A stretch of 24,173 nucleotides of DNA from Candidatus Schekmanbacteria bacterium. GTDB taxonomy: Bacteria; CSSED10-310; JACPHN01. The position numbers and the translations under genes are program-made. Numbering within the stretch: the first letter of the stretch is position 1; each line of letters begins with the position of its first letter. The stretch is taken from NCBI GenBank assembly GCA_016188575.1, contig JACPHN010000231.1:1-24173 (forward strand), written 5' to 3'. The notes below the pieces were generated by a model. The model ran no database searches and was not told the DNA's origin. It saw nothing but the letters and a program-made list of their open reading frames with translations. This document shows, piece after piece, positions 7,374 to 24,173 of this stretch.

Positions 7374-7383
7374 CAAGCACGGG

Positions 7384-8382
7384 CTAGCGCCCCGCCACCG
7401 AGAAACTCCGCTCCCACGCCCCCCAGGATTCGGTCCGCACCCCATTGCGCTCGCTCCCCGGGAATTGCTCGCCGGGCCCCGCAATCACTACGGTGAGCGC
7501 GCCGCCATGCGCGGAGATCGCTCCCGCATGCAGTGCGGCGGTGCATACGCTCGAATCGTCCGTATACATGTCCGTGCCCCAGGCCCGCGACAAGTCGCAG
7601 TCGGCAGGGCACACCGCGAGGTAGGATTTTCCTTCGGCCCCTGCCAGCGTCTTGCCCGTCTGCTCACACCCCAGCACGACTTCGTCAGAGGACACGCTGA
7701 AGCTCCTGTCCCAGCTCTCCCACGGCTCGGAGGTGACGCCGTTTTGCTGGGACCCCGCATAGGTCGACTGGCCCGGCAGGATCGTTACGGTAATTTCCCC
7801 GCCGAAAGCGGGGCTCGACACACCCGCGTGAGCTGCCGCGAGGCAGATCGCCGAATCATCGGTGTATATCCCCGTCCCCCAGAGCGCTCCAGTGACGCAG
7901 CCGCGCGGGCAGGTGACGCGAATCGCCGTGCCGGGGCCGCCTTCGAGTGCCTTGCCCGGGTGGTCGCACGCGATCTCTCGGCGCAGCGCCGCGAAGGTGA
8001 AGCTCGTGCCCCAGGGTCCCCAGGCCTCGCTGCTGACGCCGTTGGCCACGGTGCCGGTGTAGCTGGCGCGGCCCGCGGCGGCGACAACGTGGACGTCACC
8101 TCCCTGCGAGGCAAGGACGCCCGCGTGAATCGCGGCCGCGCAGATAGCGGAGTCGTCCGTGTACACCTCGGTGCCCCAGACGCGCTGCTCGCCGCATCCC
8201 GCCGGGCACCGGACAGTCACCGCGTCCCCGCCGCGCAGCTTGACGTCCTTGCCCGCAGTCGCGCACTCGGCCGCAACGCCGCCGGCGCCGGTGTCCGCCG
8301 GCGAAGGAACCGGCCACCCCAGCGCGAGAAGCGAAGCGATGCCGGCCATCAGGCTGATTCCAATACCAGGGCGCCTTCCCAT
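7384..8382 (-). CDS. Secreted protein with three tandem LCCL domains
   Basis: This is a 332-residue exported protein. After a signal peptide (about 1-30, ending SPADTG) come three LCCL-like modules at about 40-130, 139-230 and 239-330. Each carries the family hallmark YTDDSxxCxAAxHAG and four cysteines at a repeat spacing of about 100 residues (C40/C59/C63/C81; C139/C158/C162/C180; C239/C258/C262/C280). LCCL domains are best known from Limulus factor C, cochlin and Lgl1, where they are extracellular and suggested to bind lipopolysaccharide or lipids. The function of bacterial versions is not established. An in-frame start at 8511 exists, but 8382 has GGGAG upstream and begins directly at the signal peptide. 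It diverges from the cyclase gene, with 80 bp between. Confidence 0.88.
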   Translation of the reverse strand: MGRRPGIGISLMAGIASLLALGWPVPSPADTGAGGVAAECATAGKDVKLRGGDAVTVRCPAGCGEQRVWGTEVYTDDSAICAAAIHAGVLASQGGDVHVVAAAGRASYTGTVANGVSSEAWGPWGTSFTFAALRREIACDHPGKALEGGPGTAIRVTCPRGCVTGALWGTGIYTDDSAICLAAAHAGVSSPAFGGEITVTILPGQSTYAGSQQNGVTSEPWESWDRSFSVSSDEVVLGCEQTGKTLAGAEGKSYLAVCPADCDLSRAWGTDMYTDDSSVCTAALHAGAISAHGGALTVVIAGPGEQFPGSERNGVRTESWGAWERSFSVAGR

Positions 8383-8462: not shown

Positions 8463-9965
8463 ATGTCGACCCGAGCCAGTCAAGCCCTGCTGTCCCCCCG
8501 GTCCGCACCAATCCCCTCCGACTCCGCGCCGCCGACCGCGCGGCGGTCTGGTGTCGCCGGTTCCGGTGGCTCCGCCCTCGCGCCGGCCGCGCTCACGCAA
8601 GCCGCCGATCCCACCGGCGCTCGCCTGGACGAGCGGGCTCGCGACTACTGCCGCGCGAATGCGGCGGATTTTTCCCGTGAGGTCAACACGGTAGTGTTGC
8701 TACTTCTCACGCGCAAGGCACCCGTCATCTTCCTGATCACTATCGGCGTCGGCCTCCTCAACGCCGAAAAGGCAGGGGGAGCGGCACTGTTGTACCTGCT
8801 TCCCGCAGCCACCCTCACCATCTTGTGCTCCTTGGCGGCCTGGACAGGTCTGGCGCTCGATACGCTCGCCCGCACCGCCCGGTATTACCTTGACCTGATC
8901 CTCGGCGTTGGTCTGCTTGGCCTTTCCCTGACGTGGATGCACGTCATCGATCGCGGCGAAACACCTAGCAATGGTCCCGTTCAAGCCGCCCTGATCGTGG
9001 TCGGCGCGCTGCCGTTTCACGCCAGTTTCCGTTGGATCTGTGCCCGCAACGTCCTGTATGCGGTAACTGTGGCCGGCGTCGTGGCCGCGACGCACCCAAG
9101 TTTCCTACTGGAGGCCCGGGGTCAATTTCTTGGCGGCCTCCTCCTCGGTACCTGGATCGCATATTACTTCTTCAAGAATCAGCAGATCCGCTTCTATCTT
9201 GAAAGTATTGAGAGACGCCTGAATCTACATTTCTTGGAGCAGATGGAGCTAGGGTTCTACCCCCATCAAAAGGAGATTTTGCAAACGAAAGGCCAGCTCT
9301 TGGAGACAATGCCCCTTGGCCACAAGCGCGCGGTCGTCGGGGAGATCGACGTCATCGGCAGCAGCGCTTTGCAGGGACCAACTTTCGAGAGCGGGCTCGA
9401 CGAGGTCTTCGCCCAATGCTACGGGTACATGTACCAAAATTATGCCATGAATGTCGGCCGCCCACAGGAACCCTATTGCGACGGACACCTGCACAAGGAA
9501 TCCGGCGACGGCTTTCGCTTCACCGTCGACCACCCCTTTCCCGTGCCACCGGGAAAGCAGCCGGCCGCAGTGGCGCTTGACCTCGCCGAGCATTTCATTG
9601 CCATTTTTCACGACGGGCTCAGCAGCGTGCTGGGACGGCCTGCATACGCCGCTGTCGTGCTCACAGTGGATGAGCTGGAGGGCTACTGGAGCCGGGGGCC
9701 GGTCAAGACCTATGATTTCAAGTACTCCGGAATTCTTCGTAATAGCCGTCTTGCGGACGCCCGCAAGGCCCTCATGAAGACCTGTCCGCAGCGGTTTCCC
9801 GCTGGCAACCTCATTCTCCTCGAGGAAAGTGTGTGGCGCATGCTTCCCCACGAACGACAGGCGGAGCTGGAGATGCTCGAGCTTGCCACCATGGGCATGA
9901 CCGTGACGGGATGCCCGGACATGGATCGTGTCTACTATCGGTACGTTCAGCGAAAGGCGACATGA
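8463..9965 (+). CDS. Membrane protein with divergent class III nucleotidyl-cyclase domain
   Basis: This is a 500-residue protein with a proline/serine-rich N-terminus and about five or six hydrophobic helices (residues 76-238), followed by a cytoplasmic domain resembling adenylate/guanylate cyclases. Equivalents of the two metal aspartates are D296 in GEIDVIGSSAL and D349 in KESGDGF. K345 is at the purine-selecting lysine position (K-x-x-G-D). The later SGILRNSRLADAR segment aligns with the Asn/Arg transition-state motif, but its spacing is shortened. The GNLILLEESVW segment fits the final strand. It may therefore make a cyclic nucleotide, or be a catalytically weakened sensor. Start chosen for AGGG eight bases before 8463; ATG 8442 and 8457 are alternatives. 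Its stop overlaps the next gene by 4 nt. Membrane topology is clear, the cyclase assignment is my reading of weak motifs. Confidence 0.65.
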   Translation: MSTRASQALLSPRSAPIPSDSAPPTARRSGVAGSGGSALAPAALTQAADPTGARLDERARDYCRANAADFSREVNTVVLLLLTRKAPVIFLITIGVGLLNAEKAGGAALLYLLPAATLTILCSLAAWTGLALDTLARTARYYLDLILGVGLLGLSLTWMHVIDRGETPSNGPVQAALIVVGALPFHASFRWICARNVLYAVTVAGVVAATHPSFLLEARGQFLGGLLLGTWIAYYFFKNQQIRFYLESIERRLNLHFLEQMELGFYPHQKEILQTKGQLLETMPLGHKRAVVGEIDVIGSSALQGPTFESGLDEVFAQCYGYMYQNYAMNVGRPQEPYCDGHLHKESGDGFRFTVDHPFPVPPGKQPAAVALDLAEHFIAIFHDGLSSVLGRPAYAAVVLTVDELEGYWSRGPVKTYDFKYSGILRNSRLADARKALMKTCPQRFPAGNLILLEESVWRMLPHERQAELEMLELATMGMTVTGCPDMDRVYYRYVQRKAT

Positions 9966-10660
9966 GTATCATGAGAGAGAGAGAGAGAGAGAGAGAGAGC
10001 AAAGATGATGCCGTCACCGTGCGCGAAATCACGCACGACCCCGTCGAGCTCGAGCGCTATCGCGAGCGCGGAGCGGCACTCTGGGGCGGCATTCGACTGC
10101 CAATCGAATACCTCCAGCAGGGGAGAGTCTTCGCTCTCTATCGAGGCGTGCCCGGTTCGCCGCAACTCGGCGGCTTCGCCCTCATCCTCCGCCCGCCGCT
10201 GCGCACGGTGCGCCTGCTGCCGGCGGAGGTGCGGTCGGCCGATCCCGTGCTTGGCGCCCTCGGTGAAGAGGCCATTCTGGAGATCACGGGCGTGTGGATC
10301 GATCCCGAGACACGCGATCGCAGAGTGAGCTGGCTTCTCTGGCGGCATCTGACGCAAACGGCGCTGAAGGCGCGAAAGCCGTACTCGATCTACGGCTACG
10401 ACGGTTCCGTTGCCGGGCTCCGGCGACTCTACGAACCGCTGCGCGGGCGGAGGTTGTTCGCGGGCGACGCCAGCGGGCGCGCGGACGTCTCCGGGGGCCC
10501 AAGCCACCGGTCTCTGGAGCTCTACATCTTCCCCACCGCGCGGCTGCGGTGGGCGTTTTGGGTAACCGCGTGGCGCGGCTGGTGGAAAGGCAAGCGCAGC
10601 GGGGGTTTCACACGGCCGGGCGCCGCGGCGAGGAATGCCGCCGGCAACAGCGCCGAGTAG
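9962..10660 (+). CDS. GNAT-like acyltransferase with (GA)n-repeat start
   Basis: This 232-residue protein starts in the ATGA overlap with the cyclase gene, so translation is probably coupled. Codons 4-13 are a dinucleotide tract that encodes MRERERERES. A GNAT-like fold is suggested by the central FALYRGVPGSPQLGGFALIL strands, the EITGVWIDPETRDRRVSWLL segment (acetyl-CoA loop and helix position) and a later YSIYGYD...LRRLYEPL region. This resembles autoinducer-synthase or N-acyl amino acid synthase relatives, but no exact family is recognised. The end is arginine/tryptophan-rich and basic. In the present sequence the tract keeps the gene open (ON); gain or loss of one GA would shift the frame. 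M4 (9971) is a second possible start, but it too precedes the tract. Confidence 0.55.
   Translation: MSIMRERERERESKDDAVTVREITHDPVELERYRERGAALWGGIRLPIEYLQQGRVFALYRGVPGSPQLGGFALILRPPLRTVRLLPAEVRSADPVLGALGEEAILEITGVWIDPETRDRRVSWLLWRHLTQTALKARKPYSIYGYDGSVAGLRRLYEPLRGRRLFAGDASGRADVSGGPSHRSLELYIFPTARLRWAFWVTAWRGWWKGKRSGGFTRPGAAARNAAGNSAE
9973..9999 (+). repeat. (GA)13 dinucleotide microsatellite inside a coding start
   Basis: Thirteen GA units plus one G lie directly after the second ATG of the GNAT-like gene. Slipped-strand changes of one or two units would frameshift the gene, which is the classic phase-variation arrangement. Such a long perfect dinucleotide tract is rare in GC-rich coding DNA and is not required by the protein. 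Confidence 0.9.
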
Positions 10661-20828: not shown

Positions 20829-21410
20829 ATGGCTGCGGCGGGACCCACACGGGGCAGCGTCTGTTCTCCGCGCCGTCCCTTCGAGCGAATGGCGTTGACG
20901 CCTGGGGAGGCTGGGAAGATCGGAGGGGCCCTTTTGCGTCAGGCGGAAGCCGTCTTCGATCGGTGGCACCGGTTCCGCGACGGCGCCGTCCAGGATGGCA
21001 CCTTTCGGCGGTACATGCGGCCGATCATGGCCAGAGTCGGCGCGCCGCTGCGCGAAGGGGGACAATGTGCTCACGCCAGGACGCAAGGGACGTGTGCGGA
21101 GATCTTGTCGCTGGAGCCGGCGCTGTGGACGTTCGTCTTCCACTACCGCGAAGGCGTCGAGCCCACCAACAACGCGAGCGAGCGCGCCATCCGGCCAGCG
21201 GTCCAGATGAGAAAGACCAGCTTCGGTACCCGGAGCGAAGGCGGCTGGCGGTTCATCGAGCGCATGCTCACGGTCGTCATGACCCTCAGGCAGCAGCAGA
21301 GGAGCGTCTTCGAGTACCTGACCGAAGCCGCTCAGGCACGCCTCGAGGGGCGATCCGCTCCTCTTGTCCTACCGGGCGCTCGCGTGCCTCTCTGCCTGGC
21401 GGGGGCATGA
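20829..21410 (+). pseudogene. IS66-type transposase, 5'-truncated remnant
   Basis: Only the C-terminal part of an IS66-family DDE transposase is present. The run FHYREGVEPTNNASERAIRP, then QMRKTSFGTRSEGGWRFIE, MLTVVMTLRQQQRSVFEYLT is the end of the catalytic domain, including the final-acidic-residue region (NNASER). The N-terminal two thirds are missing, and the first about 30 residues before PFERMALTPGEAGKIG are not obviously homologous. No flanking inverted repeats or tnpA/tnpB genes are visible. It is most likely an inactive fragment. Confidence 0.75.
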
Positions 21411-21453
21411 TGAGGTGAACGCTTACTCCAGGAGCCTGAACCCTGCACCCAGT

Positions 21454-23640: not shown

Positions 23641-23721
23641 GTACCCGCCGGCCGCCTCTCCCCTTGCGTCGCACCGTCGATTGGGCCTAGCCTTCGGGGC
23701 AGTGTGGTCCCCGCTCTCGCC

Positions 23722-23727
23722 GGAGGT
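23722..23727 (+). promoter_or_regulatory. Strong ribosome binding site deciding the start of the repeat-controlled gene
   Basis: GGAGGT lies four bases before the ATG at 23732. It marks this ATG as the genuine start even though that frame is closed after 65 codons in the present sequence. Confidence 0.75.
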
Positions 23728-23731
23728 AGGC

Positions 23732-24173
23732 ATGTGGTGGCGCGTCCCTTCTTTTTCTCTCTCTCTCTCTCTCTCTCTGTGTGAATCTGGCGGCGACCAC
23801 CTGCCTGTTCGTGCTGATCGCCCTCCCCAGCCCGGCGCGCGCCGCGGGCGACTCCTTCGAATCCGGCACCTTCGCCGCGCTGCCGTGGGAAATCAGCCCG
23901 GTGGACGCGTGGCAGGTGGTCGCGGGTGACGCGGCCGATGGCGCCTCCGCGGCCCGCACCGCGCCGCTCGCGGACGGTGGCACGGCGGTGCTCGAAGTCA
24001 CCCTGGCGGTTTCCTCGCCAGGCGAGGTCGCCTTCTGGGTGAAGACCTCGACTGCGGCGCCGGCCGACGCCCTGGTATTCGCGATCGCGGGGGCTTCGGG
24101 GACCTTCTACGACAAGGACCGCTGGTCGGGGGAGCAGCCCTGGACCCGCGCTTCCTACGCGCTGGCCGCCGGC
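23732..24173 (+). CDS. Secreted protein with repeat-controlled start, 3' partial (OFF state)
   Basis: From 23781 the frame reads VNLAATTCLFVLIALPSPARA, a signal-peptide core with an A-x-A cleavage site. Next comes a mature start, AGDSFESGTFAALPWEISPV, and a jelly-roll/lectin-like domain (WQVVAGDAADGASAARTAPL, then GEVAFWVKTSTA, LVFAIAGASG, SGEQPWTRASYALAAG) that runs off the right edge. Only a GTG at 23781, with no ribosome site and no positive residue, could start this frame directly. The ATG at 23732 (MWWRVPSF...) has a perfect ribosome site and supplies the missing arginine, but the (CT)11 tract leaves it out of frame and closed at 23929. I infer a surface or secreted protein switched by repeat length. 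Listed as one gene despite the frame break. Confidence 0.65.
23757..23778 (+). repeat. (CT)11 dinucleotide microsatellite in a coding start
   Basis: Eleven perfect CT units, preceded by five Ts, lie between the ATG at 23732 and the signal-peptide-encoding frame that opens at 23781. Adding one unit or removing two would join the ATG to that frame. In the present length they are out of register. Confidence 0.9.

Follow-up and report, generated by a model that had tools for sequence, protein, structure and literature searches.

Repeat-driven phase variation has been described as typical of small-genome bacterial pathogens without many sense-and-respond regulators (PMC11475388). In Neisseria gonorrhoeae, opa (about 11 copies) carries CTCTT repeats in its leader-peptide sequence (PMC3745409), in Helicobacter pylori CT repeats are found in the signal-peptide region of oipA (PMC10564699), and NalP of Neisseria meningitidis is a phase-variable autotransporter protease with a homopolymer tract in its coding sequence (PMC3723659). 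Repeat hypervariation has also been described in the uncultivated lineage Gracilibacterium, as a 9-mer coding repeat within a surface protein (PMC6851277), and a general occurrence of homopolymer tracts close to 5' ends has been reported for prokaryotes (PMC2831843).

Here we describe a dispersed family of genes for predicted secreted proteins in an uncultivated Candidatus Schekmanbacteria bacterium, in which a CT tract lies within the signal-peptide coding region. From the sequence, translational phase variation by slippage of this tract is the best explanation of the family, with a probability that we put at about 0.8. The open-access literature that we searched contained no description of a CT-leader family of such size outside pathogens.

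A CT-tract gene at the end of the window

The window, the whole stretch of 24,173 nucleotides that was analysed, is the entire contig C86 of a 9,204,407-base draft genome in 275 contigs; other loci are likewise named by contig. The gene at its end has the following layout.

23664..23693, + strand: promoter-like box (TTGCGT, 18 bp, TAGCCT), matching the CTTGCN box aligned 5' of the paralogues' leaders; its -10 half and its promoter function are putative
23722..23727, + strand: Shine-Dalgarno sequence GGAGGT, read from the sequence; a purine-rich Shine-Dalgarno sequence is kept across the paralogues
23732..23929, + strand: OFF-state open reading frame MWWRVPSFSLSLSLSLCESGG..., 65 aa plus stop, from the ATG at 23732-23734, a start backed by in-frame, tract-poor paralogues
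23757..23778, + strand: perfect (CT)11 tract, the candidate switch (sequence and tract count), encoding (Ser-Leu)n where the signal peptide begins
23781..23843, + strand: remainder of the signal peptide, VNLAATTCLFVLIALPSPARA, in frame +1 relative to the ATG (sequence and translation); the GTG at 23781 is without a Shine-Dalgarno sequence
23844..24173, + strand: mature secreted N-terminal domain, beginning DSFESGTFAALPW... and truncated by the contig end (own-genome matches and alignment)

An earlier note on this DNA had described a secreted-protein gene locked OFF by its CT tract, and its coordinates for the Shine-Dalgarno sequence, ATG, tract and out-of-frame secreted part match the sequence to the base. 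It had also reasoned that gain of one CT unit or loss of two would fuse the frames, which is borne out, the signal-peptide frame being offset from the ATG by 1 mod 3. The pure repeat sits between the start codon and the predicted functional domain and, as its unit is not a multiple of three, gain or loss of a unit shifts the frame. The signal-peptide and secreted-domain frame stays open to the contig end at 24173. Given the ATG as the true start, the window copy as assembled is OFF. The secreted domain, previously called lectin-like, has no Pfam family, and a PDB profile search gave only a marginal match (E 0.22). Upstream, an apparent remnant of an IS66-type transposase, recognised by eye at 20829-21418, is followed by a gene-poor, degenerate stretch that extends up to the CT-leader gene.

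Under a first-order Markov model a (CT)11 tract is expected about 5e-9 times in the window, and across the 9.2-Mb genome 19 CT tracts of at least six units are present against about 1.5 expected. Seventeen of the 19 are leaders of the window gene's own family; the remaining two are a tract on C194, away from any 5' end, and the (AG)13 tract of another gene in the window. TCT accounts for 3.8% of the Ser codons in the window genes, and three Ser-Leu pairs written solely as TCT/CTC have a probability of about 4e-6 from window codon usage. Since TCT is so rare among Ser codons, the choice of codons for Ser-Leu does not by itself account for the CT tract. The (AG)13 gene is a separate, second candidate contingency gene:

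9962..10660, + strand: 232-aa open reading frame, in frame (ON), whose ATG overlaps the upstream stop (ATGA); no Pfam match
9974..9999, + strand: (AG)13 tract within the opening codons of this reading frame (MSIMRERERERE...)

A dispersed family and other tract-bearing leaders

About 29 dispersed leaders of the same design occur in the genome, of which 28 were aligned and the 29th, at the start of C205, is cut by the contig edge. These paralogues greatly strengthen the reading of the gene as a contingency locus, and the view of it as a single locus gives way to that of a genome-wide family. The 131-aa frame that follows the tract matches 39 stretches of its own genome, and the window DNA from 23480 onward matches 31. 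The common layout runs from a CTTGCG-type box through a purine-rich Shine-Dalgarno sequence, ATG and leader codons to a CT run that is read as Ser-Leu repeats, followed by the remaining part of the signal peptide and then (D/E)SFE(S/T)G. The CTTGCN box is found 5' of nearly all 28 aligned leaders, which begin with one of three N-termini (MSWRVPSLSL, MPRRVMSLSL or MTQRVASLSL). The pure CT run varies from 9 to 27 nt among the paralogues, and even within a group at approximately 87-92% DNA identity, C86 (the window copy), C44, C77a, C14b and C123 have runs of 23, 23, 17, 11 and 9 nt, respectively.

The family was sought in 40 other genomes and found in none of them; seven of these share the phylum of the organism, none being more closely related, and its rpoB shares no more than 60% identity with the best named records. 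No member was confirmed in named GTDB contigs, IMG/VR, phages or plasmids, and a search of IMG/VR with the leader DNA pattern gave no match. CT tracts of at least eight units are absent from all seven same-phylum genomes and present in 14 of 144 wider genomes.

The first, N-terminal domain of the family has no match to a known family in Pfam. Full-length members continue with a Thr/Pro-rich linker, an FN3-like segment and differing C-termini. By eye, the FN3-like segment of C162, C211, C143 and C133 seems to be split by a hydrophobic two-helix hairpin with an Arg-rich loop. The C-terminus of C211 contains HEVGHAIGAAH, which conforms to the metzincin zinc motif HExxHxxGxxH, with a Reprolysin_5 match of 22.3 bits that is below the Pfam cut-off of 27; HExxH motifs are present in C162 and C195, and C143 carries a Glucodextran_B domain. 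The best reading is that these are predicted secreted, partly proteolytic proteins. Elsewhere in the window, 7383-8380 on the minus strand encodes a secreted protein built from three repeats of about 100 aa, similar to one another and LCCL-like on visual inspection.

Other secreted families in the same genome carry poly-G within their leaders or signal peptides:

C260, C96 and C231: poly-G leader MRKVGGG, with YGRIVAVAVAACCC
C240 and C239: poly-G leader MNPRPRGGG
C144 (twice) and C271: poly-G leader MRAKWFDGVARRFSGGGG
C141 and C254: poly-G leader MRRCGLVAVVAAVTIGAMGGGG

Read from the Shine-Dalgarno-linked ATG, every one of the ten is OFF, five in each wrong frame; two have short runs of 6-7 G, and one OFF copy on C144 is open for 1128 codons. 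A genome-wide excess of poly-G was considered and rejected: the 36 distinct tracts of at least 10 are not above a simple base-composition expectation, and we therefore use only the leader position of poly-G as evidence. A further candidate switch family has poly-G of 10-25 just past a hydrophobic stretch (..GIAIAGGGG followed by ..VDALVEPLETVTD), with copies on C237 (twice), C266, C151, C139, C111 and C74.

Start codon, OFF state and alternative explanations

Seven copies with a short or interrupted CT run (C162, C211, C258, C77b, C153, C67 and C4) are in frame from the Shine-Dalgarno-linked ATG through the signal peptide, with an open length from the ATG of 1164 aa in C162 and 1129 aa in C211; C67 and C4 are broken further downstream. 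That these tract-poor paralogues read from this ATG identifies it as the true start. The GTG at 23781, which is without a Shine-Dalgarno sequence, was rejected as a start on the same grounds. The earlier note had looked to tract-free homologues starting at the GTG as evidence against its reading; the homologues that lack a long tract begin at the ATG, which removes this objection.

Sixteen copies with a pure CT run of 13-27 nt, including C205 and C180, could be scored, and 15 of them are OFF, 13 in frame +1 and two in frame +2. The exception, C77a, is in frame across the signal peptide and frameshifted later. Among copies with short or interrupted tracts, seven of 12 are ON and five OFF; the difference in OFF frequency (15/16 vs 5/12) gives a Fisher p of 0.004, which is optimistic because paralogues are not independent. 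With CT and poly-G loci pooled, 1/26 is ON against one third expected (p ~4e-4 if the loci were independent, which they are not). OFF is thus commoner than the expected two thirds for both CT (15/16) and poly-G (10/10) loci, which could also mean decay.

Nevertheless, OFF copies can retain long reading frames: C143 and C195, both in the middle of long contigs, are open for 1107 and 886 codons. Values of dN/dS among OFF-OFF pairs are mostly 0.1-0.5 (C133/C232, 0.23 over 226 codons; C195/C232, 0.30; C133/C93, 0.39). At the level of the family, the downstream frame is open and under selection despite being OFF. In the close subgroup of the window copy, two of five copies are broken (C14b by a stop, C77a by a frameshift), and dN/dS values of 0.5-1.9, based on few changes, indicate weak constraint, and the window copy itself may therefore be decaying. 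The description of the gene as locked OFF holds for the OFF state and not for the lock, since with such a tract OFF could in principle be reversed; it is rather the ON copies with interrupted tracts that would be locked.

It could be argued that the OFF copies are decaying duplicates, pseudogenes in whose leaders the CT tract expanded neutrally. Such decay would fit the OFF state of nearly all long-tract copies, the additional stops or frameshifts in C14b, C4, C67, C102, C249 and C77a, and the weak constraint in the window subgroup. However, it sits poorly with reading frames of 1107 and 886 codons in OFF copies, with the dN/dS values among them, with the conservation of box, Shine-Dalgarno sequence, ATG and leader, and with the concentration of CT tracts of such length in one family, and we consider it unlikely as a general explanation.

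Recoding, in which the ribosome or RNA polymerase slips by one dinucleotide on the CT tract, would let OFF alleles yield some full-length protein and make the tract a set-point instead of a genetic switch. By codon logic a 2-nt slip on a CT repeat re-pairs perfectly, and 13 of the 16 long-tract copies are in the same wrong frame, +1 (p ~1e-4 vs uniform, if independent); the common ancestry of the paralogues can itself account for this common frame. Moreover, the other wrong frame is taken by two long CT copies and by half of the poly-G loci and, as both wrong frames occur, no single slip direction serves all, which argues against a single programmed frameshift and leaves recoding very improbable. 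Least credible of all is that tract lengths in the draft are wrong and the real genes in frame. In this 275-contig draft many copies do have a contig end only a few hundred bases away, but at 13-27 nt the tracts are short enough for ordinary reads to span, the mid-contig copies C143 and C195 are also OFF, and random length error would leave about one third of the copies in frame.

Slippage model and comparison with described systems

According to the phase-variation model, transcription would proceed from the common promoter-like box. As the in-frame paralogues show, the Shine-Dalgarno-linked ATG is where ribosomes begin, and it is the CT tract that encodes the opening Ser-Leu repeats of the signal peptide. 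An in-frame number of units would yield the full secreted protein, with the N-terminal domain, the Thr/Pro linker, the FN3-like segment that bears the hydrophobic hairpin and, where the member has one, the metzincin-like protease end, whereas out of frame translation would stop after 11-69 codons. Gain or loss of a CT unit would flip the gene; slippage in living cells and its reversibility are suggested by the anatomy of the leader, by the differing tract lengths among close copies and by purifying selection on OFF copies. Interruption of the tract would fix a copy ON. Missing mismatch repair as the source of tract instability was rejected, since mutS1 and mutL are both present in the genome.

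A likely use of such switching would be to keep a stock of secreted or surface enzymes and to express few of them per cell, a form of bet-hedging that might, speculatively, be directed at phages, predators, competitors or changing substrates. It may also be, at somewhat less than even odds, that in this large-genome bacterium of a thinly sampled phylum a secreted repertoire from several unrelated families is gated by CT or poly-G at the signal peptide and nearly all OFF at once, leaving at most a rare random subset per cell, an antigenic-variation logic outside known pathogens. With one switch in many copies of differing tract length, a single genome offers a natural replicate experiment, and metagenome reads could serve to measure directly how the tracts slip, how OFF is selected for and how interruption of a tract fixes a copy.

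Among described systems, NalP resembles the present family as an exported protease under repeat-driven switching, both protease and switching being predicted here; it is a single autotransporter, whereas the present genes are a family, some of whose members end in a metzincin-like part. Those ends resemble Reprolysin-like (M12) metzincin metallopeptidases in the C211 motif and its weak Reprolysin_5 match, and differ in that this match is below the Pfam cut-off and the N-terminal part is without a known family. The Gracilibacterium repeat is different in kind, having no leader frame switch. In oipA and related Hop genes, a CT dinucleotide repeat in the signal-peptide region decides between ON and OFF, as it is predicted to do in the leaders described here; the Hop proteins, however, are located in the outer membrane and encoded at few loci of a host-adapted pathogen, with no family-model match in common. 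Like opa, the present genes form a dispersed multigene exported family with a repeat within the signal-peptide coding sequence and, as far as sequence can indicate, frame-switched translation. Yet opa uses a pentamer rather than a dinucleotide and encodes outer-membrane adhesins of a small-genome human pathogen, while here some 29 leaders belong to a secreted family unrelated to Opa, and the genome measures 9.2 Mb. Pfam and NCBIfam models found no homology to Neisseria Opa or Helicobacter Hop, and by analogy the CT-leader family would work like opa and oipA while being homologous to neither. If true, the occurrence of some 29 CT leaders together with the poly-G leaders of other secreted families, in a 9.2-Mb genome with mutS and mutL, would mean that the repeat-switching strategy is in use where host immunity is no obvious driver.
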